Below, in pieces: positions 2,127-23,600 of a stretch of DNA of 31,017 bases. The stretch is from Heterotrichella gracilis (lineage: Eukaryota; Sar; Xanthophyceae; Tribonematales; Xanthonemataceae), in assembly GCA_032358255.1 (NCBI GenBank), contig JAULBX010028249.1:1-31017 (forward strand), read 5' to 3'. Every line of letters starts with the position of its first letter. Within the stretch, counting starts at the first letter, position 1. The notes below the pieces were generated by a model. It was given only the letters and a program-made list of their open reading frames with translations. It had not been told where the DNA came from and searched no databases. Position numbers and translations under genes: made by a program.

Positions 2127-5100
2127 TCACGCCAAGCTAACCGCCCCAGCCTCGACCCTGAAGCGCGAGCTGGACCCCACAAGCCGCTCTATGTGCGCAT
2201 AGGCAGCCTCCCGCACCCCGCCGCTCAGCCCCGCGCCCTTGGCCACCCGCTTCTGGAGCTTGCGCAGCTTCAGGGCCTTGCCCCCACACTCTGCAAGCAC
2301 CGCAGCCACCACCTTCTTCCACTTGAGAGCAGGCAAGGGCTCAACCGACTCTGGTGCAGCAGGGGTTGTATCGCTGGTGCTGGGTGCGGCGGCAGCGGGC
2401 GTGGCGGGTTTTTGCTTCTTGCTGGGTTTCCTCCCCTGGTCTTTGGCGCTGTTGTCCTGCCCTTGACCCGAGGGCTCCGCTGCCTGCTGCAGCCGCCTGG
2501 CAGGGACTATGACAACCTCCACGGCCTCCACCTGCAGATTATATGAACATTATGATGTATTGATACAACGTAATAGACGTTTTTCATCATCGGTGTCTGC
2601 CGCAGCGACGGGAGCAGCATCAAAAAGGAGCTCCAGAGGAGGGACACTTTGCAGAGCAACATGCATGTGCACTGATGCACCAGCATGCGATATGCAGGGG
2701 TAAGCCAGGCAGGGATGCAACCCTCACCTGCAGATCCCCGCTCTCCGGCATTGGGGGCCCATCACCCCCCTCCCCATTTTCCTCCCTCTCTTCCTCCCCA
2801 TCGTCGTCGCTGTCCAGCCGGGTCCTGGTGCCCGCCCACCGCTCCCCCGCCACCTTTTTCGGCATGCTCCCCCTGCCCAGCCCCTGCTTCCCAGTGGTGG
2901 CTGTGGCGCTGGCCAGGTTGTACAGCGCGGTCTGGTCGTCCTCTGAAAACCCGTTGATTTTGACCTGCGCCAATGGTAGGGTCAGGTCAGGTGGGGAGCG
3001 GTGCGCACTGGCAGAGACAAAGCGCGGCTATAGCAATCAAGGGGTTATCTGGCTAGGCTGCATGGTGGTAGGAAATGTGAAAAAATCCGCGCCGTTGCGC
3101 ATATGCTGACTGACACCCGTAGTCAAGTTTGGGATAGTGGCACACAGAGCCACACAGCATGCAACTCATCCGCCAACATGCCAATGCCAACAAGCAGTGC
3201 CACACTTTCACTCATCCGTCAACATGCCAATGCCATATGCCACCTAGCCCACCGCCTCCCCTTCTTGCCACCCAACGCATCGGTATGCGCCACCAACCCT
3301 AAACCCTACACCCTGATCCCCAATCAGCATGCGCCACCCACCTTGGCACCCGTCCCTTGCGCAGCGCTCCCCGTTGCAAAGCTCATCCTAAAGCCCTACC
3401 CGATAAACCCTAAACCCACATCAGTTTGCGCCACCCACCTTGGCGCCCGTCCCTTGCGCAGCGCTCCCCTTGGCAAAGCTGACCCGCCGCTGCGCGCCCG
3501 CCCGCCCCGACACTACAAAGTAGCCGTGCCACCACAGCTTCTCGGCAGCAGCCTCTGGCCCTGCAGGGGCCGCGGTGGAGGTGGCGCCCTGCCGCTCGCT
3601 GCTTATGCCCTCTGACTGCGCACCTGCAAAGATCAAGATAAAAACATAAGGTACCATCAATGAATGGAATAACACGCATTGCTGTCCACTGCTGTCGCTC
3701 TCAGACTGCTCCCACCTGCATGATGGACTCCACCAACTTTGGTGGTCACATGCATAACGCGTGGGATGTTATGCATGTGACCATAACATCCCAACGAGTT
3801 TCACCAATTTCGGTGCCCTGGTGCGAGCCAGTGGCCCCTTAACTCCGCCCTTCTTTCTTTTATAGCATTCCAAAAGTAATGCCATAACACTTTTACTTCT
3901 TCTACTTGTAGTTTCCAAGGACTAGTCATTGAATCGGTGCAGTTCCAGCATGTGGCTACATGGAGTGTTGCGCCAGCACGGCCTGCCTGCGCCACGTGTC
4001 CCGTAGCAGCATTGCTGTGGGCGCCCTGTCGTCCAGGCAGCGGCCGCTGGGCGTGGCGGTCGCAGCCCCCTTGGGTGCCAACAAACCCTAAACCCTAAAC
4101 CACCACTATCGATGGAGGTGGTCAACGCCAGTGACAGCACGGCTTTTCCTTCCCCTCCATTCTTCCCTTCTCGCAAATGCACATGCCCCGCTGCAATCAC
4201 CAAAACCACACTGGCTGCACTCACACCACCCTGAGATTTTCGGGTTTAGGGTATAGGGCTGCACCGCCCTGATTGGGGTTTAGGCTTTAGGGTATAGGGC
4301 TGCACCCACATGACCCTGGGGTTTCAGGCTTTAAGGTTGAGGGAGGCACTCACCTGACGCGCTGGGTGCTCCGTCCACTGAGCGGGGGCCCTCCGAGGGT
4401 GGCGGGGTGCCCGGGGTGTCCTCTGCGCACGCTGGTGAGGCAGGGGCGGCCTCCGGTTCCCGGTCGTCAAACTGCAGGTGTGCAGGCAACCACTGAACAC
4501 ACACCTACACATGGCCTCGCACTACCCACGTGGCGGCTGCATGCAGCACGGCCCAAATGCCCAGCGTGCATGTGACAAGGCGGATGCTGCACCTGCAGTG
4601 CTCGTGAAACCAGTACTGACATGCTGTGATTTGACCCAGCACCCCGGAAGCAGATGATGACATGAAAATTGATTGAATGCCCCACGCAGATCTGTACATC
4701 CATGGCATGTTGGCACTCACGTCTTGCTGGTACTTGACGGCAAAGTCGGTGCCCAGAATGGCCGCAAGGTCGGTTGTGGAGTAGCCCTTGACCAGCTTGC
4801 CCTGCTCGCGCTTCTTGAACCGACCCACGTGGGTGGCGGACCGCACCCGCTTCACAGCCACCTCCTCCGCCTCCGCCTCCCCTTGCTCGCTCTCCCCCGA
4901 TTTTTCCGCCTTGCGCTTGCTCCCCTTGGGTTTAGCTCCATCGGCGGCAGCGGCCTTAACCTTTTTGGCGCGCTTGGCCTCCTGTGAGGCGAAACCTCCT
5001 TGGTCAGCCAGAGGGGCTGCTGTAAACCTTAGTTCATGCAGATCCCGGCAGCCCGCCCCAGCGCCAGCCAGTGTTTGGCAACGTGGCGCTCCCCGCGGGA

Positions 5101-7108: not shown

Positions 7109-10100
7109 ATGCGCAGCTCAGCAAGGGCGCTCCGCCTGTTGGCCCGCCAGTTGCCGCAGCCGTCCGTATTCTACACCATCTCCTCGGACTCCCTGATCCC
7201 CACCTTCACATCCACCTCCGCCTCGCCCGGACCCAGCACCAGTGATGGCACTGGCGCATGCTCCTGGCGAGATGTGTACCCTACTAGGGTAGCCGCGGGC
7301 TATGCCTCGGCTGCAGGCTTCTCCACCACCCCAGAGGCGTCAGCGCCTGTATTGGAGCAGGAACCGACCGAGGATGTGGTCGAGGTGAGCGCATGTTGTT
7401 TTATTTATGGGTGCTCGCATGGGCGCATGGCGATCCCGGGGCTGTTACGGGGGTGCGCAGGCCTCGATCATACCCGTGTTGTGAGTTTAAAATCGAGTTT
7501 GGGCGTTCCCAAGGCGTGGCCAATAGTCCAAGCGTAGGGTTCGGTGGTGGCTGGTCGTTAAGGGCCAAATTGACATGCATGCATATGGCGCACCAGTACT
7601 CCCCTACACAGACCACTAGTGCTGCTGGAGGACGTGGGGCATAGAAAAGGTGGCAATATTTTATACAATATGATATCACATAGTTGGCCACTGGGGTCCT
7701 CTTGAGCTGCAGATCGAAAAATATGACTTCGATTCTGGTTCACGACCCGCTCCTCCTCCTACTTGCGGCCCCTACATTCCCCCTTGCACCCCCTTCCTTG
7801 CTGCTCCAGTCTTTTTCGACATCATATGCCTCCCATTATCTTCATTTCGCAGGTACCTAGCGCCGATGCGGACACCTGGGCAGCCACTGCCGAGGGTTCG
7901 GAGGGTGTGGTGCAAGGGGAGCAGGGGGGTGAGGACGGGGAGGGGGAGGAGGGGGACCACCACACCCCCCGCCACCGGTACCGCAGGCACCAGGTGGAGG
8001 TGCCAACCACCCCAGGGGCGCTGCTGGACGCCATGAGCAACCTGCTGGGGCAGCGCAAGACATGTGAGTGCCCCAGCGAGAAACCCTAAACCCCAAACCC
8101 TAAACAGCAACCTGCTGGGCCCAGCGCAAGCCTTGTGAGGGTCACCACTACAAGTGAAGAGAGTTGGCTGGCTGCGTGCAACCCAATCACATCAGCGCCG
8201 GTCGCTCTGTGCACAGCTTGCGCCAATTGGCCCTGTCTTGGCACCGTACCCTCTCTGCACTGCTTATTCGGAAGTCTGGGAGACTAACCGGTTGTGTAAT
8301 GGTTATCTTTGATGGTTGCGGAAACCCATCGTTAAATCTAGTAACTCGAAGTAGATGCCGGAAACCTACTTATTACAATGATTTTGTGCCCCGCAGTCGA
8401 GGTGTGCCGGCTGTTTGAGATGTACACCGCTGAGATGGAGGAGGCGGGCCTGCGGGATTCGGATCCCAAGAAGGTGGTGGTGTACCCCGAGGACAAGTGC
8501 CCACCCCCCACGGCTTGGAACCTCTACATGGTGGCGCTGTCAAAGTGAGGCCAGGAACCCTGAAACCCTTAACCCACAAACTCTAGTATCCCCCTTAGCT
8601 TTAGAACGCTAAGGATCGGAGCACAGGCGTCCATTTCCCCCGGGCATGGAACCTGTACAATTTGGCGGTGGGAGGCCAGGAACCCTAAAACCCTAAAGCT
8701 GGGGATGTTAGTATTACCCCACGGCAGCTGGTGGCGACTTCACCCACCTAGCAGCTAATAATCCTTGTCCATGCACCCCCACCCCCACCCCCACCCCCCA
8801 CCCTGCCCCATCACCCACCCCAGGCGCGACACCAGTCTGGGCTACATGCGGGCTGAGGTGAAGAAGGCCGAGGCCAATAGCCTTGGATTAATGCCATGTA
8901 CCCTCTTTTATGAAATATTGTAATATGATCGACTTACTTCTATTTGTCGTTCTTTCCCCCCCATCCATTTTATAGTACTAATCTAACCCCCTACCCCCCA
9001 CACACCCGCAGGCGCGACACCAGCCTGGGCTACATGCGCGCTGTGATGAAGAAGGCGGAGGCCAACGGGGTGCGCCCGCACGTGCCCATGTACAACGCAA
9101 TACTCAAGCGGTGCGCGGAGAGGGGCACGCCCGCTTCAGGCAGGCACGCGAACCAGCTCGTCAACGAGATGCTGGTGGGTGGCGGGGGGTGGGGGGTTGG
9201 CGGGGGAGAAAGTGGGGCGTGGGGGGTTGGGTGCTTGGTTGTCGGTGAGAGGCTGGGGTGTTTGGTGGAAGGGCTGGGGCGGGGTTGGTGAGGTGATGTG
9301 GGGGGGTGCGGAGAAGGCCTGCACGCCTGCATCGTGATTTGCTGGGTGGGGAGAGGGCCTGCACCAAGGAATGCAATCTGTGCGCTGGGTCATCTCAAAA
9401 CCTACAAATGAACCCTACATTTGAGCCCTAAACCCTAAACCCTGCACTTGAGCCCTAACCCTTGCCTCCCCGGTTCAGGAGCACAAGCTGCGCCCCACCT
9501 TCAACAGCTATGCATGGGCAATCACCGCGTGCCTGGATGGCTTTGAGATGAGCGCGGCAATGAAGTGAGTAGCAGAGGGGGTTTGGGGGGCAGGGGTAGG
9601 GGTGCATGGATTTTGAGGGGTATGGGTGCCGTTTGAGATGGATATGATTGGAGCAGGGTGAGTTGCCTTTAAATAAATGACTTGCTGCAAGAATCAAGCC
9701 TAAGATTATAATGCTAAAAAACTTTTATACCTTATTCGTGACATACTGATATACCACCGATACTCCTCAGAGAATGTACACCAGCGAGAGTACCTCTCTT
9801 TGATTGTTACTTATGATAAGGTAACCAATTAATATCCTGCACATGACAGTAACCTCAAATACCACGTATAGGCCGCTGAAAACTCCCACCTCCTTAATTA
9901 CATCAGATTTGCATTATCAATCACTCAATTTAATGTATTTTCTGCTGCGCAGGCTGCTGGCCCTGCTCAAGGGCGTGCGCACCAGCGAGAGCTCCGACGT
10001 GGCGCACATAGAGCGCAAGGCCCTCCGCGACCTCTACGGGCGGGGCATCATGTGCGCGGCCCGCCTGCGCCGCTTTGACGACGCATTGGCGCTCATGGAG

Positions 10101-13100
10101 GCGGCGGACGGGTCTGGGTTCGTCACCCCTGTGCTTGTGCTTGGTGACTTGCTGCTGTATGGGACCGNNNNNNNNNNNNNNNNNNNNNNNNNNNNNNNNN
10201 NNNNNNNNNNNNNNNNNNNNNNNNNNNNNNNNNNNNNNNNNNNNNNNNNNNNNNNNNNNNNNNNNNNAGGCGGGGCGCAGCGATGTGGTGAAGCTGGCGC
10301 TGGGCGAGCTGGCCAGGCTGAGGCAGCGGCCGGTGCGTGGAGGGGAAATTTACCTTTAGGGAAACCCTTGAGGAAGTTGTGTTAAAACCCTTAGGAGGGG
10401 GCGGGGTTTAGGGTTTAGGGTTGTGGCCCCTGTGCTTGTGCTTGGTGACTTGCTGCTGTATGGGACCGAGGCGGGGCGCAGCGATGTGGTGAAGCTGGCG
10501 CTGGGCGAGCTGGCCAGGCTGAGGCAGCGGCCGGTGCGTGGAGGGAAAACCCTAGGGAAACCCTTAAGGAAGTGCCGTGAAACCCTATGCCTAGTGGAAT
10601 CCTGGAAAGCAGACCGCAGACAGCCGTCGGCCCTCGCACACCTCTGTGTATGCTCTCCCCACCCCCTCTGTCGCCTTTTCATCCGCCCAACACAACCAAC
10701 CACCTACGGCAGCCCCGCCAGTCCCTTCAAGCTGTCTGAGGGCAGCCTGCTTGGCTGCCTCAACACCCTAAACTAAACCCTACAACCCTACAACCCTAAA
10801 CCGCCACACAGGCCACAGGCACCCACCCACCCCTTCCACCACGCTCAACCTCTCTCCACCCTATACACTCTCTAATTTCTCCCCCCCACCCACCCCCACC
10901 CCAGTTCAACTATGGTGGCCCCGCCATCCCCTTCAAGCTTGATGAGGGTAGCCTGCTAGCCTGCCTCAACACCGCCGCTCAGGCAGCCGACACCCAGCTG
11001 GCTGACCTTGCCTGGACCATGCTGCTGCGCTCGCTCAACCAGCCGTTTGTGTACAGGACCAAGCCCGGGGTGGTGCCGATAGGTGGGTGGATGGGGGTGT
11101 AGGGTGTAGTTTTCTAGGTTTGGAGATGCAAATTTGGGCAGCTCATAGGGTTTAGGGTTCAGAGACTAGGATTTGTGACATCCGGAGCACAGACCTTGCG
11201 CAGACTACCCTTTGTATGCTGCTGTGCTTGCCTAAACGCCTTCTCATTCCCTGCTTCACTTACCCTCTTGTCACCCCCTCATCACTCCTTCTGCCCCCTG
11301 GCTACCTTCCCCCTGTGCCCTCCCCTTGACACCAATTTCTCCCTCCCCCCCTGTGCAGACAAGCGCGATGGCGAGATTGCCATCTACGAGAAAGGGGAGG
11401 CAGTGGACTATGCAGCCCTGGTGACTCTGGCCACTCCTGAGCCAGGCCAGACCCTGCCCACTGTGGCCTCCTACCACGCACTCATCCACACATTCTGCGT
11501 GGCCAAGGAGTGGGAGTGAGTCCCCCAAACCCTTAAACTCTGGGGGTGGTGGTGGTATTAAAACCCTGCAAAAGTTTCTAAAATCCCAGCCCAAACCCTA
11601 GGGACCTGGTTACCCTGGCCAGACCCTGCCCACTGTGGCCTCCTACCACGCGCTCATCCACACGTTCTGCGTGGCCAAGGAGTGGGAGTGAGTCTCAAAA
11701 TCCCTAGATTTATGGTGACGGTGTTTGTAATGCCCTTAGACCTGCTGATGTGGTCGCGCAACCTCGTAACCCTAGCCAGCGACCCTCCTGCAACCTGTAC
11801 AACCCAACTCGCATTACAGTCCTACTGTCAGAAACATGCGTCAAGTACGTATATCCCATCTTACTATGTTTCTCCCACCCTCTCCCCTGCAGCAAAGCGG
11901 TGGCTGCCATCGTCCAACTTGCCGAGGCCCATGGCTCGGACCGCGAGGTGCTTGCCTACTTCGATGGCCTGGTGCCCCTGGTGGACCGCCTGGCCATGGA
12001 TGTGGGTGCCATTGACGCCATGTACTACCGGGTGGAGGGGATGGTGGAGGGGGGCGTGGAGGGGGCCAAGCGCCAGGCGCTGGGGGCGGTGCTGAACGCG
12101 GTGCTGGCTGCTTGCTCACAGGTGGGTGGGTGGGGAGGTAGGGTTTAGGGTTTCAATGTTTGGGTTTAGGGTTTGGGTGCGGGTGGGGTGGGTTTGTGGT
12201 ATGGGGCTGTGCTGCCCGCTTTTTTTTGGGCGGAATGGCGATCGCAAATGTGTTGTGTATCCAAACTAAGGGATACTGACAGGAAGGACTTGTATACAGC
12301 AAGCCGTGTGTTGGTGTGGGAGGTTATGAGTCATACAGTATGACATAATGATGTGATGACACTTGTTGACTCCCTCCCCCACTTGTTGACCGCAGATCGG
12401 CGACCTGAACCGCGCCTTTGAGACCTTTGAGGCCTTCAAGACCCTAGGGTTTGAGCACGACGTCAACTCATACAACGCGCTGGCCAATGGCTGCCTCAGG
12501 CACGGACAGCTGGAAACGGCGCACAAGGTGAGGTCATGTAGGGTGTAGGGTGTAGGGTGTAGGGTTTAGAGTTACGAGACCCACCGCCTGGTAGCCGACT
12601 CCGTACCATGCTCTTATTTGACATCCCTCAACGCAAACGCTACTGTAAATTCTACCCGGCAGCTGTTTCTAGAGAAGCTCCCCACCTGTGGCCTCACTCA
12701 AAACAACGAGACCCACCACCCCGTCGCCCACTCCTACGTCGTCTCCCGCAACATCCTCTCCATGTTGGCCACCCACCCTCCAACCCCCACCCTGTAACCC
12801 CCATCCTCACCCCCCTCCCCACCCCCCACCCCACCCGCAGCTGCTCCTCGAGGAGCTCCCCGCCCTCGGCCTGGCCCTCAACAGCGAGACCCACCACCTC
12901 ATCATCGACTCCTACGTCATCTCCCGCAACATCCCCGCCATGCTGGCGGCGCTCAACACCATGCGCAGCACGGGGCACAGCCCGCGCATCAAGCTGCTGC
13001 AGCGCATGGCGGCACGGTGCGAGCGGGAGGGGGACGAGGCCAGCCTGGGGCTGGTGCTGCGCCAGCTGGCGGCCAGGGGGTACCGCGTGCTGGGGCACAA

Positions 13101-13725
13101 CTCGTGGGTGAGTTGTAAGGCCATAGTTGAGGGTGTGGGGGTGACATTTAGGGTTTGGGATGCCTGCATCAAAGCTTGTGGGTGATGTGGATGGCTAGGG
13201 ATGTTGGTTTTGGGGTTCAGGATTTTGGGTGCCAAGGGCTGGGGGTGGCGTTGCGCGAGTTGGCGGCTAGTGGTACTGTACCGTGCTGGGGCTGAGCTCG
13301 TGGTGAGCTGGAGGGTTTTGGATCTGGTGCTGGCTGCCAGCTGGCAGCTGGCAGACAGGGGGTACCGGATCCTGTACCACTGGATCCTGTACCACCAGAT
13401 CCTAATGTGGGGCAGCTGATGGTTGCGTTTAGGCTGAAACCCCCCCTCCCTGGTGTGATCCTGACCCCCCCTTCCTCCCCTTCAGGTCAAGCGCTGGGAG
13501 GAGGAGGGCGGCGTGCAGATCCTGACTGGCTCCACCAAGTTCATCTCGAGGGAGAAAATGTACAAGAGGATAGCCAGGGAGAGCTATGGCAAGGACGAAA
13601 TCGCCCGCCGCGGCGGTGCGGGCCAGTCCACCTCAGTCCTGCCCCCTGTAAGCGAGGGAGGGGCAGGGGATGGTGGCAATGGGGAGGAAACTTTCGAAGA
13701 GGCTGAGCACAGGGCAGCAGCTTAG
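7109..13725 (+). CDS. Organelle-targeted P-class pentatricopeptide repeat (PPR) protein
   Basis: Twelve exons, phases consistent: 7109-7384, 7853-8063, 8397-8544, 9012-9174, 9479-9564, 9953-10332 (contains the N gap), 10905-11082, 11359-11515, 11893-12121, 12396-12527, 12841-13107, 13486-13725. About 788 residues if the gap has zero length. The N-terminus (MRSSARALRLLARQLPQPS) is Arg/Ala/Ser-rich with no acidic residues, typical of a mitochondrial or plastid presequence; an in-frame upstream Met at 7028 is an alternative start. PPR-type helical repeats are clearest at about 213-290 (VRPHVPMYNAILKRCAERG), 478-520 (TVASYHALIHTFCVAKEWDK) and 570-700 (VNSYNALANGCLRHGQLETA, TGHSPRI). The tail after about 710 is basic, then acidic. 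PPR proteins bind organellar RNA; the target is unknown. A relation to the Arabidopsis mitoribosomal PPR group (for example At1g26460) is a guess. Exon echoes fill several introns. Confidence 0.88.
8033..8146 (+). repeat. Echo of PPR exon 2 donor end, separated by CCCTAAA tract
   Basis: The end of exon 2 and its donor (about 8033-8076) are repeated at about 8105-8142 (cagcaacctgctgggcccag...ttgtgagg). The telomere-like tract aaaccctaaaccccaaaccc plus taaac (8081-8105) sits exactly between the two copies. Confidence 0.85.
8511..8696 (+). repeat. Echo of PPR exon 3 donor end
   Basis: 8511-8572 (end of exon 3, its donor and the following ggccaggaaccct) is repeated at 8641-8696 as gcatggaacctgtacaattt...ggaggccaggaaccc. 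The GT donor is lost in the echo. CCCTAAA-like runs follow both copies. Confidence 0.8.
8824..8878 (+). repeat. Echo of PPR exon 4 start with its own acceptor
   Basis: 8824-8878 matches the first 55 bases of exon 4 (9012-9066) at about 49 positions and is preceded by a pyrimidine tract and CAG (8821-8823). It encodes RDTSLGYMRAEVKKAEAN against the exon's RDTSLGYMRAVMKKAEAN, then runs into intron-like sequence and a stop. Confidence 0.85.
10125..10533 (+). repeat. Tandem duplication of PPR exon 6 end, spanning the N gap
   Basis: The echo at 10426-10533 (108 bases) matches 10125-10167 joined to 10268-10332 (43 + 65 = 108 bases), including the donor gtgcgtggagg. Between the two copies lies ggtttagggtttagggttgt (about 10404-10423). 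The intron bases after both donors also match in part (gggaaaccctt). Confidence 0.9.
10168..10267. other. Assembly gap of 100 N inside PPR exon 6
   Basis: Exactly 100 N, the conventional size for a gap of unknown length. The left flank ends ...tatgggaccg and the right flank begins aggcggggcgc. The nearby echo reads straight through as gggaccgaggcgggg with nothing missing, and a zero-length join keeps the reading frame (exon of 280 bases, one base plus 93 codons). Confidence 0.95.
10705..10773 (+). repeat. Echo of PPR exon 7 start
   Basis: 10705-10773 (tacggcagccccgccagtcc, ttcaagct, gagggcagcctgctt, tgcctcaacacc) is a degenerate copy of the start of exon 7 at 10911-10975. It ends in ccctaaactaaaccc, again a telomere-like tract. 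Confidence 0.85.
11442..11687 (+). repeat. Echo of PPR exon 8 donor end
   Basis: 11614-11687 repeats 11442-11515 at about 71 of 74 positions, including the GTGAGT donor at 11688. The copy stays open in the exon's frame (VASYHALIHTFCVAKEWE). CCCTAAA-like runs (cccaaacccttaaac, caaaccctaggg) lie between the copies. Confidence 0.9.
12135..12175. repeat. Interstitial telomere-like tract (TTTAGGG)n
   Basis: ggtagggtttagggtttcaa followed by gggtttagggtttggg, directly after the donor of PPR exon 9. No echo of exon 9 was recognised in this intron. Confidence 0.8.
12537..12613 (+). repeat. GTGTAGG/TTTAGG tract followed by a short echo of PPR exon 11
   Basis: Four tandem tagggtg units and a tagggttta (12539-12569) follow the donor of exon 10. 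Immediately after, 12575-12613 (cgagacccaccgcctgg, cgactccgtac) resembles 12884-12922 inside exon 11, making this the more distal of two exon 11 echoes. Confidence 0.7.
12663..12768 (+). repeat. Open, splice-competent echo of PPR exon 11 start
   Basis: 12663-12768 aligns with exon 11 at 12841-12946. It has its own acceptor (ggcag, AG at 12661-12662) and the same phase. It encodes LFLEKLPTCGLTQNNETHH and SYVVSRNILSML against the exon's LLLEELPALGLALNSETHH and SYVISRNIPAML. The frame stays open to a TAA at 12795, where a gtaacc donor-like site overlaps. Confidence 0.85.
13231..13400 (+). repeat. Two echoes of PPR exon 11 donor end
   Basis: 13231-13310 (ctgggggtggcgttgcgcga, ttggcggcta, gtgctggggctgagctcgtg, then gtgagctg) and 13324-13374 (ctggcagacagggggtacc) both resemble 13035-13115, the end of exon 11 with its donor. 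The second is followed by three short repeats of atcctgtaccac. Confidence 0.75.
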
Positions 13726-14487: not shown

Positions 14488-18543
<4,056 letters not shown>

Positions 18544-20489: not shown

Positions 20490-20660
20490 CGCCTCCCCCC
20501 TTAAGCAGCGCGGATGTGGCCAAGCAGCCTGAGGGTTGTGCCGTAGGGTTTAGGGTTGTCAGCTCCCCCCTCCAAGCAGCGCGGATGTGGCCAAGCAGCC
20601 TGAGGGTTGTGTCGTAGGGTTTAGGGTTGTCAGCTCCCCCCTCCAAGCAGCGCGGATGTA
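20490..20660. repeat. Tandem repeat with TTTAGGG motif at the 3' end of the RUN-PX gene
   Basis: A unit of about 70 bases (ctcccccctccaagcagcgc, ggatgtggccaagcagcc, tgagggttgtg.cgtaggg, tttagggttgtcag) occurs twice plus a partial third copy that overlaps the last codons of the RUN-PX-RH gene. The gene's stop codon lies inside this unit. Confidence 0.9.
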
Positions 20661-23600
20661 GCCAGCGTTGCCACGTGCCCCTCTGCAGCCTCCAGCCACT
20701 GGGGCAGGCGCGAGAACGCCCCCTGGCTCAGGTCCTCCAGCTCGCGCAGTGACCAGTAGTCTGCGCCCTCCAGCATGTAGCGCTTGGGGCCCACCTTGGA
20801 CAGCAGCTGGGACACGCGCGCATCCAGGTCGGGGCCCTGAGGGGACGGGAATTTGATAAAGGGCTGATGAGAACACAAAAGACAGCTTTTTCGATACCCT
20901 GGGTATCAGAAAGGTATGCAGATTAAGATTTAATCATCAGCTTTGACAAGACCACAGCCAGGCCCTGCGGAGCCTAAGAAGGCTGCATTCTCCTATCAAA
21001 CATTATTGGTTACTGGCACACATTTTACGCCCAGAATTCAACCCGCATTCTTAACCCCACACACACCTTGCTGCGAGTGGCCGCCAGCGCCTTGACTATC
21101 CTGGTGCGCAGGTCGCGCGCCTTGGCCAAGGGGGGAACCCTCGCCAGGAGACCAGGGTTGACTTCGCTGACGCACAGAAGGGGTTTGTCGTACACCGAAG
21201 CCAGGAAATCGGCCGCCGGGGCGCTGATCGGGTGCTTGGAAAAGTCCCAGGAGCGCAGCACTCGAGCGGGGATGACGGCGGTGGCGTTTTGGTGGCAGCT
21301 GTGGCAGTAGAGCTGGCCGGTGTAGTCACACATGCGCGCCACCTGGCAGGGAAGGGGCAAACGGGATGTGATGCAGGCAAGTGGGAAATGGTGAGTATGA
21401 TGATGATAGGGATGCTAAGCATGGTGGCAGGCGGTTCATTCACACATACACATTTTCTTGATGGGGGGCTGCACATGACTCCTGTGGTGCATGGCGGGGG
21501 GTGCATAAGGTAGTACCCACAGCCAGTACCTATGTGGGTGCATGTCGCCCCTCCCCTCTCAATAGCCAGCCCCTGCCACCCACCTTGCTCACCCCCGCTC
21601 CCCAGCCGGACCCCTTCCCTGCACCCTTGAAGGGCTCCCGGCAACCTGCGCACGCCCCCCCCTGCACCGCCACCTGCTCCGCCTCGCTGCGCTTGGGGGG
21701 TGGGTGGGTGATGAGGCGGATGGAGCCACCGGATGGTGCTGGTGGGGGTGGTGCTGTGGCTGTGGGTGGTGGTGGTGGGGTCTTGGAGCCCCCAAAGAAC
21801 CAGCCTGTGGGAGTGGAAACAGAGGGTGGTTGGTTAGTGGGTGGTGGGTGGGACGGGTTGGTATTCAGATCACGCGACACTGGCTATGCCCCAGATCCCC
21901 AACCAGTGAATTACCCTCAACCTGTAATCAGCACATGCACAATATAGGAGGCTGTCAATTGCGGAGGGGTTCTATCTGATGATGATCCAGTGCGTTGTCC
22001 CCATCCGACCATCTCAAGCCCAAGCCCAACCCACACGCACCCACAGCTCCTCCCGTCCAGCCCTGTCCCTCCTCCCCCACCGGTGCCCCCCCCTGCGCCC
22101 CCTCCCTGTCATCCTGAGGGGCCAGAAATGCCCTGAAGGGGGCGCTGGAGGCAAGGCCAGGCGAACCAGTGAGCACCTCCCGCAGGCACAGCTCAAGCAG
22201 TGCGCGGCGCGCCTCGACCACCTCCGGTGCCATCCTGCAGGCGCAGCTCAAACATTTCAACAAGTGAGCACCTTTGCGAGCAATGTTCAAGCGGTGAGCA
22301 CCTCCCGGCAGGCACAGGTCAATCAGTGCTTCATCATCTCGGGTGCCATCCTGCACACAGGGTAGGAGCCAGCACCTGATCCACAACACAACAAGCCTGC
22401 CTCTAGCACCCCACACAAGCCACCACCCTGCAGGTGGATTCCAATGTCCCCACTGGCCACTCAATGCCCTCCCCTTCCATGTACCCTGGTGTCGCTGCTT
22501 CAGCCATCATCGACAATGCCGCCACCGCCGCATATGACCACACCCACACCACCACTGATCACCACCACTCTCACCTGAGGTTCCCTGTCACCCCCCTGGC
22601 CTTGCTTATGTCATCCCAGCATGCGGGCAGCGGGCCCAGCCTCAGACCCTTGAGAGCAAGCCGCAGGGAAGCAAAGTCCCTGCAGGAGGAATGGGAGTTG
22701 TTACGGTAACGGTACATGCCGTAGGAAGGATAGTATATTGAGTTTGAGGGTTCCACAGCTGATTTATTTCAGCAATATTGGTTAATTGTCATGGTTTCAT
22801 ACAACATAACAATGAGTGCATTGCAACTGCCGTGAAGCTGGTGGCCACTTTAGCCACCACCCAGTGCCCTATTGCTAGCTAAACCCTAGGCCAGGGTCCC
22901 AGCCTGGTGTCTCACCTGAATCTGTGCCGCACGGTCCACGTAGCCCCCTCATGTGATTCCACCTCCACCACATAAGCGGTGAACTCGCTGTGGGGGGTTG
23001 CACGAGTGGGTGGGGTGGGGGGCTCGGACACCGACTCCGCGCCAGTCACGCGCACCTGTAAGTGGGGGACGGAGATGTGGAGGTGGATGGGTGTGGGGCA
23101 TGAGGGGTGACGTGTCCCGTAAATAGGCCACGTTGCACCAAAACAGAGAGAAGGAAACAATACCATAATTGAAAAATGGCAGTAGGGATGAAGATGCTGC
23201 AATTCAAGTTGGGCTTGCACCATGAGCTGCTTGCGATCACTCATTCACATCTGCACTCTCACAACAACACAACAATTAGGTATCACACAGATAAAACAGG
23301 TATCATTGCTCCACAGTGAGTACTCTGTAGTGTTGAGCCATGAGTGAGGGGGAGGGCACTGCATTACCTGCTTAATCGTGAAGGAGGTGCCATCATGGGT
23401 GCCAGGGGAGGTGCCGCCATCCGACAGCAATGGAGAGGAAGCATCTGAGGCGAGGGAGGCTGCACCGGGTGAAGGGTGGGCATCGGCCAGCGCACCATTC
23501 ATGTCCTGCAGGCAATAAGGCATCCAGTGGGGGTAGTTATGAGTATAATTTAGGATGCTAACAACTTGAACCTGAGCTTGTCGGTCCCAATAAGGTGGCA

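Follow-up and report, generated by a model that had tools for sequence, protein, structure and literature searches.

In plants, tandem duplications form at paired nicks or patch-type breaks, where fill-in of the staggered ends leaves short tandem duplications; we know of no telomeric insert at such paired-nick duplications. Introner elements are insertions with target duplications that are removed by splicing. Here we examine a PPR gene of Heterotrichella gracilis whose introns carry degenerate copies of adjoining exon edges (echoes), together with a sample of the same genome in which such copies recur, often with telomeric repeats at the seam between the two copies. Mammalian interstitial telomeric sequences are inserted at double-strand breaks and include a class with target duplication ascribed to staggered breaks; in the available parts of the source reports, this class is minor (6 of 130 rodent, 4 of 25 primate and 3 of 66 horse loci), and human exons hold no interstitial telomeric sequence (PMC2246262, PMC7215372). 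For the potato RdRp gene, the accessible text of the report describes a tandem genomic duplication across an exon–intron boundary that inherited splice signals and founded a new intron (PMC4974935). Telomeric insertion at breaks and tandem duplication of exon edges are each already known.

The window, meaning the whole stretch of 31,017 nucleotides, is a complete contig (JAULBX010028249.1, here C573) of assembly GCA_032358255.1 (here G000; 68.5 Mb, 903 contigs), of which about 270 kb was read. A hand-rebuilt model joins 12 exons into a single open frame of 788 amino acids, a complete PPR gene with PPR domains in its product (PPR_2, 8.4e-14); a 100-N gap at 10168–10267, within exon 6, is excluded from the translation. 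Among 7994 candidates scored, no protein relative was found at E ≤ 0.001. Every intron of the gene was aligned to both flanking exons, giving 22 comparisons with 40 dinucleotide shuffles apiece. Eight exon-edge echoes, spread over 6 of the 11 introns, beat all 40 of their shuffles. These are the same eight that the initial annotation had listed, although its statement that nearly every PPR intron contains one proved too broad. The gene, its echoes and the associated telomeric tracts lie as follows.

7109–13725, plus strand: PPR gene, 12 exons, 788 amino acids (hand-built model, domain match)
8036–8068, plus strand: exon 2 end with donor, original copy (intron–exon alignment)
8081–8105, plus strand: telomeric tract at the exon 2 seam, abutting the echo (gap to the right copy 0)
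8106–8139, plus strand: exon 2 end echo with decoy donor (intron–exon alignment)
8506–8572, plus strand: exon 3 end and intron start, original copy
8637–8697, plus strand: echo of exon 3 end and intron start, donor lost (score 50; 28 against 25 on the exon alone)
8801–8877, plus strand: exon 4 start echo with decoy acceptor (original 8989–9065)
10268–10377, plus strand: original copy of the exon 6 end and its donor, lying to the right of the N gap
10404–10422, plus strand: telomeric tract at the exon 6 seam
10423–10573, plus strand: exon 6 end echo with decoy donor (start read from the sequence; the alignment edge starts at 10411, inside the tract)
10701–10767, plus strand: exon 7 start echo, acceptor lost (original 10907–10973)
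10768–10802, plus strand: telomeric tract immediately after the exon 7 echo
11442–11533, plus strand: exon 8 end with donor, original copy
11593–11600, plus strand: short telomeric tract close to the exon 8 seam
11614–11705, plus strand: exon 8 end echo with decoy donor
12656–12769, plus strand: exon 11 start echo with decoy acceptor (original 12834–12947), without a telomeric tract
13239–13310, plus strand: exon 11 end echo with decoy donor one base shifted (original 13045–13115)

Echo scores against the shuffle maximum were 133 against 25 for the exon 8 end, 130 against 31 for the exon 6 end, 101 against 27 for the exon 11 start, 83 against 22 for the exon 4 start, 74 against 35 for the exon 7 start, 55 against 34 for the exon 11 end, 38 against 25 for the exon 2 end and 28 against 25 for the exon 3 end, the last being weak on the exon alone and stronger once the intron flank is added. 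The remaining 14 comparisons stayed below their shuffle maxima or at most one point above them; a weak exon 6 start echo, also proposed at the outset, comes down to a marginal 12-base match lying 27 bases within the exon (24 against 23). All eight echoes lie 0–5 bases from the splice site, with an exon-part identity of 76–100%. Read from the sequence, the donor or acceptor is retained in six, as had been said of most, and is gone from the exon 3 end and exon 7 start echoes. A telomeric tract stands at or near the seam in four (exons 2, 6, 7 and 8); the tract closest to the exon 11 end echo is about 80 bases from its seam.

Echoes also occur genome-wide. Introns beyond the PPR gene were compared with their flanking exons, a check that the initial annotation had called for, in 25 stretches of 10 kb, minus three of low GC (L013, L017 and L032, left out of the genome tests), plus the window, or 251 kb in total. 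A small purpose-built gene finder trained on these 251 kb predicted 42 genes and 321 introns, and five of six scanned proteins contain Pfam domains (among them CAF1B, 1.3e-112; Peptidase_S10, 1.2e-81; GARS_A, 1.6e-80). Against the hand-made PPR model, the finder recovered 9 of 12 exons exactly. It found neither end of the gene and, beside the N gap, took the exon 6 echo for an exon; the hand-made model replaces it in the echo counts and later tests. Echoes scoring at least 40 were found in 49 of 620 intron–exon comparisons and in 42 of the 321 introns, where mismatched introns gave an expectation of 0.0; at a score of at least 35 there were 55 against 0.3 expected. The 49 still include three rows from a protein-repeat array, L024. 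Thirty-seven are no more than 2 bases away from the splice site that the exon has in common with the intron in question. Among local pairs within 500 bp, 112 raw direct matches (87 non-redundant) stand against 3 inverted ones, the offset is 50–300 bp in 102 of the 112, and some loci hold three-copy arrays. The copies are adjacent, direct and extend to both sides of the splice site, so the echoes are tandem duplications that straddle a donor or acceptor and leave the original splice site outermost. L024 was left out of the intron-part, codon-position, seam-cover, seam-word and intron-birth tests, and L024 together with L014 (inverted gene copies) out of the pair, tract and simulation tests and the density correlation.

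The repeat at these seams is the genome's own telomere repeat, CCCTAAA: (CCCTAAA)5 lies no more than 10 bases from the start of at least seven contigs and also near the end of C872. The TTTAGGG telomeres, together with the genes present, would suggest a green alga or a relative. Telomere-type words head the over-represented intron 7-mers (AACCCTA, 124 against 9.5 expected). Neither CCCTAAA nor TTTAGGG occurs in 64 kb of predicted exons, an absence that is partly built in because no exon predicted by the finder can run across an in-frame stop. Palindromic words of the ATGCAT type are over-represented in introns as well (TGCATGC, 116 against 49.7; ATGCATG, 101 against 33.3). Across 21 loci, the density of tracts correlates with that of duplications (Spearman 0.79, p = 2e-5), and echoes are found in 22 of 59 motif-bearing introns against 24 of 262 others. 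In the 30 bp nearest the seam, telomeric cover is 23–27%, compared with 4% at matching places in introns without echoes, and a telomeric word lies between echo and splice site in 33 of 45 echoes, compared with 29.5% in controls. Cover over the 40 bp nearest the seam is 0.235; the corresponding place in the outer copy has 0.085 and introns of the same gene have 0.068 (both p = 0.0006).

The association was also seen from the side of the tracts, with gene models ignored. Direct copies flank 22 of 60 tracts, compared with 44 of 480 non-coding places drawn at random from those loci (p = 1e-7), and mismatched flanks gave 0 of 214; the copies around tracts align over 17 to 181 bases. A held-out set comprised 17 internal (CCCTAAA)5 loci, picked by position and blind to sequence among the matches listed, with apparent chromosome ends avoided; one of them, L048, has its tract at a contig end and was dropped here (n = 16) and from the polarity test. 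Flanks scored at least 30 in 5 of the 16 against 0 of 240 mismatched, and at least 26 in 7 of the 16 against 2 of 240. L036 reads as 64 bases, tract and the same 64 bases (61 identical) with zero bases between; L043 repeats this layout with 21 bases (19 identical) and zero between, and L046 with 17 bases (all identical) and one between. L044 runs copy–tract–copy–tract–copy, and in L049 a tandem pair stands left of the tract instead of flanking it. Flanking target duplication is present in both sets and universal in neither.

We propose that staggered breaks are filled in and joined, often with a telomeric insert, and that duplications spanning a splice site survive through splicing; we put the probability of this explanation at roughly 0.6. 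A break with long staggered ends would be filled in on both sides and rejoined, producing a head-to-tail duplicate of the stretch between the nicks, often with a short stretch of the cell's telomere repeat left at the seam. Duplications and telomeric inserts inside exons would be purged by selection, whereas those spanning a donor or acceptor would persist, since the spliceosome would use the original site on the outside and excise the inner copy with its telomeric run. The intron would lengthen and the copied exon edge would decay neutrally, yielding graded identities. The staggered breaks, their filling in and end joining, and the choice of the spliced copy are inferred; telomerase is a candidate source of the telomeric runs. 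Staggered-break repair and selection for duplications that can be spliced out were offered separately in the initial annotation. Both find support here, and the two combine in one account.

Several observations weigh against this proposal. No telomeric word lies within 60 bp of the seam in 17 of 45 echoes, 9 of the 16 held-out tracts lack a flanking copy at score 26, and in 17 of 37 boundary-touching echoes no copy of the intron part was detected. The tract is present in both copies at 21 of 45 echoes, so some tracts may pre-date the duplication. We did not see the polarity that extension by telomerase would leave (16 of 31; 8 against 10 for opposed tracts), the copy edges being blurred by divergence. 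The ratio of exon–intron to intron-only pairs, 3.8 (49 to 13), exceeds the 0.9–1.3 (p = 3e-4) of a simple simulation that allowed for selection against exon-only events and for the longer visibility of boundary events through their constrained exon copy; among young pairs alone (11 to 3) the difference is not significant (p = 0.17). Recurrent events at one place, as at L044, and decay may explain part of the cases with a tract in both copies or with none near the seam.

Tracts shared by both copies would also be expected if the telomeric runs were there first, as fragile G-rich sites at which breaks or fork stalls cause tandem duplication, so that the tract is not an insert. The density correlation agrees with this idea, as do the 37 of 59 motif-bearing introns without an echo. 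It sits poorly with a telomeric cover that is 2.8 times as high at the seam as at the corresponding place of the outer copy, and with the exact copy–tract–copy layouts at L036 and L043, and we consider it possible but rather unlikely. As a separate observation, tracts meet head to head at L018 472–506 and L046 500–550, a TTTAGGG run against a CCCTAAA run, resembling two joined capped ends.

We compared the placement of pairs with random relocation within loci, which, like the simulation, depends on the gene finder's models. Exon–intron pairs numbered 49 against 24.4 by relocation and exon–exon pairs across an intron 10 against 2.7; intron-only pairs numbered 13 against 23.2, intergenic pairs 14 against 23.9 and same-exon pairs 1 against 12.8. 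The near absence of same-exon pairs is as selection predicts, and nothing that we found requires a break at splice-site-like sequence. Tracts likewise cluster near splice sites, with 69 of 106 within 75 bp against 47.7 expected under a uniform spread, and 43 of 63 against 30.9 in introns without echoes (introns above 900 bp left out). C-type and G-type tracts number 28 and 26 nearer the 5′ splice site, and 42 and 10 nearer the 3′ site, a bias that fits branch-site use or the removal of TTTAG decoy acceptors. There may be a moderate exon-edge bias beyond selection and detection.

The same-exon deficit is shared by ordinary random short tandem duplication, through slippage or end joining, if it is coupled to selection and to slower decay of the exon copy and if the telomeric link is incidental. 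Neutral drift of the copies and the echoes without a tract near the seam would suit it equally. This account becomes improbable in the face of the seam enrichment, the tract-centred and held-out tests, and a pair ratio above that simulated.

The intron part is also copied in 20 of the 37 boundary-touching echoes (p < 0.05; about 2 expected by chance), whereas RNA templating predicts copies that end at the splice junction. The exon part is often more alike than the intron part, which, with the moderate boundary excess, could speak for RNA- or R-loop-linked templating of exon ends into introns, another of the initial suggestions. The copied intron sequence and the telomeric DNA at the seam count against such templating, and local direct repeats are found outside genes too (14 of 87 non-redundant pairs are intergenic by gene-finder annotation); we regard it as very improbable.

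The echoes look neutral, drifting like non-coding DNA, and their graded identities resemble ages. Across 45 echoes, differences from the exon fall at codon positions 1, 2 and 3 as 70, 72 and 140, with 853–861 sites per position. Of 41 gap runs, 39 disrupt the reading frame and 2 are multiples of three. By both measures the echoes bear no mark of coding constraint. Free drift of the echo would explain about 71 differences at each position, and the surplus of 69 at position 3 fits synonymous change in the exon. Functional echoes, as alternative exons or decoys under selection, are scarcely credible given that positions 1 and 2 differ equally and often and that the gaps are out of frame; GT stands in register in 15 of 18 donor-side echoes (read from the printed sites), but about 84% of GT pairs are expected to survive anyway at about 8.3% drift per site. 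We also considered gene conversion, prompted by the near-identical exon 6 and exon 8 echoes and their poorly matching intron parts. It is needless for the whole set, as the third-position surplus fits synonymous change, and single cases may remain.

An assembly artefact of collapsed or misjoined haplotypes, which the 100-N gap inside the exon 6 duplication unit might suggest, is extremely unlikely given the graded divergence, the many contigs and the zero N in 20 sampled stretches. The exon 6 echo, adjoining that gap, is less secure than the others. The flanks of the gap adjoin without a break in the intronic echo, and the true gap length is thus possibly zero.

An intron-birth signature, in which an intron's end resembles the upstream exon's end or its start the downstream exon's start, was found at a score of at least 28 in 3 of 314 introns (null 0 of 1492), compared with boundary echoes in 53 of 314 at the same score. 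All three candidates hinge on gene-model choices, and this count rules out intron birth as the main process. The best candidate for a duplication-made intron is L019 3883–4142 (minus strand), predicted intron 4 of g0, with a 164-base duplication and a telomeric tract; it reads equally as a donor-spanning echo.

Two further duplications lie in the window outside the PPR gene.

3323–3480, strand not assigned: copy, telomeric tract (3404–3417), copy
20493–20664, strand not assigned: tandem copies, offset 70, 96% over 102 bases

The latter has telomeric tracts at 20544–20557 and 20615–20628 between its copies and lies in or beside a predicted minus-strand gene. A direct pair at 15683–15762 and 15866–15945 (76%, offset 183) occupies the start of a phosphoribosylamine–glycine ligase gene, and the gene finder's models break there. 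Elsewhere in the sample, L015 and L016 (contigs C140 and C160) contain introns and neither a telomeric 7-mer nor a local duplication. L024 carries two arrays (3204–4604 and 7322–8488) whose unit recurs about every 126 bases, apparently a repeat-protein gene and a second copy. At 295–8045 of L014, one gene region is repeated several times in alternating orientation, with matches of up to 88% over 325 bases. The assembly itself is mixed. Low-GC contigs with long intronless frames (0.31–0.41; C1 and C43, sampled as L001 and L002, and L013, L017 and L032) stand beside others of GC about 0.5–0.6 with introns; C1 and C43 contain a long intronless ligase frame, and the low-GC contigs are probably bacterial.

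Echoes supply a mutational reason for intron lengthening, and together they make up a large natural collection of break-repair scars, graded in age and with readable seams. On a bolder and frankly tentative view, telomere-repeat-linked repair of long-staggered breaks could be a main ongoing engine of intron growth in this lineage, preferring exon edges, leaving paired splice sites that the spliceosome must discriminate and occasionally founding introns in which telomeric CTAAA serves as the branch site. Many splice sites here have telomeric tracts close by, and these tracts coincide with the doubled splice sites.

A full-text literature search in a library with few subscription journals, judged mostly on titles and the starts of abstracts, turned up no account of telomeric repeats where exon edges are duplicated, nor of telomeric insertion combined with exon-edge duplication at this frequency and at splice sites. 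Between the printed copies we saw only telomeric words and intron sequence and, unlike in introners, no shared mobile element, introns having been compared for shared elements only through the mismatched-intron null. The arrangement resembles the interstitial telomeric sequences of mammals, as those sources present them, in its short intrachromosomal runs of telomere repeat and in the class with direct target duplication. It differs in that copies here flank 22 of 60 sampled and 5 of 16 held-out tracts, many of them spanning splice sites. The likeness to potato RdRp is that a tandem duplication crosses an intron–exon boundary and carries the splice signals along. The accessible part of that report does not mention a telomeric repeat, whereas telomeric repeats mark the seams here, and where the potato duplication founded a new intron, the usual product in H. 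gracilis is a longer old one (birth signature in 3 and boundary echoes in 53 of 314 introns).

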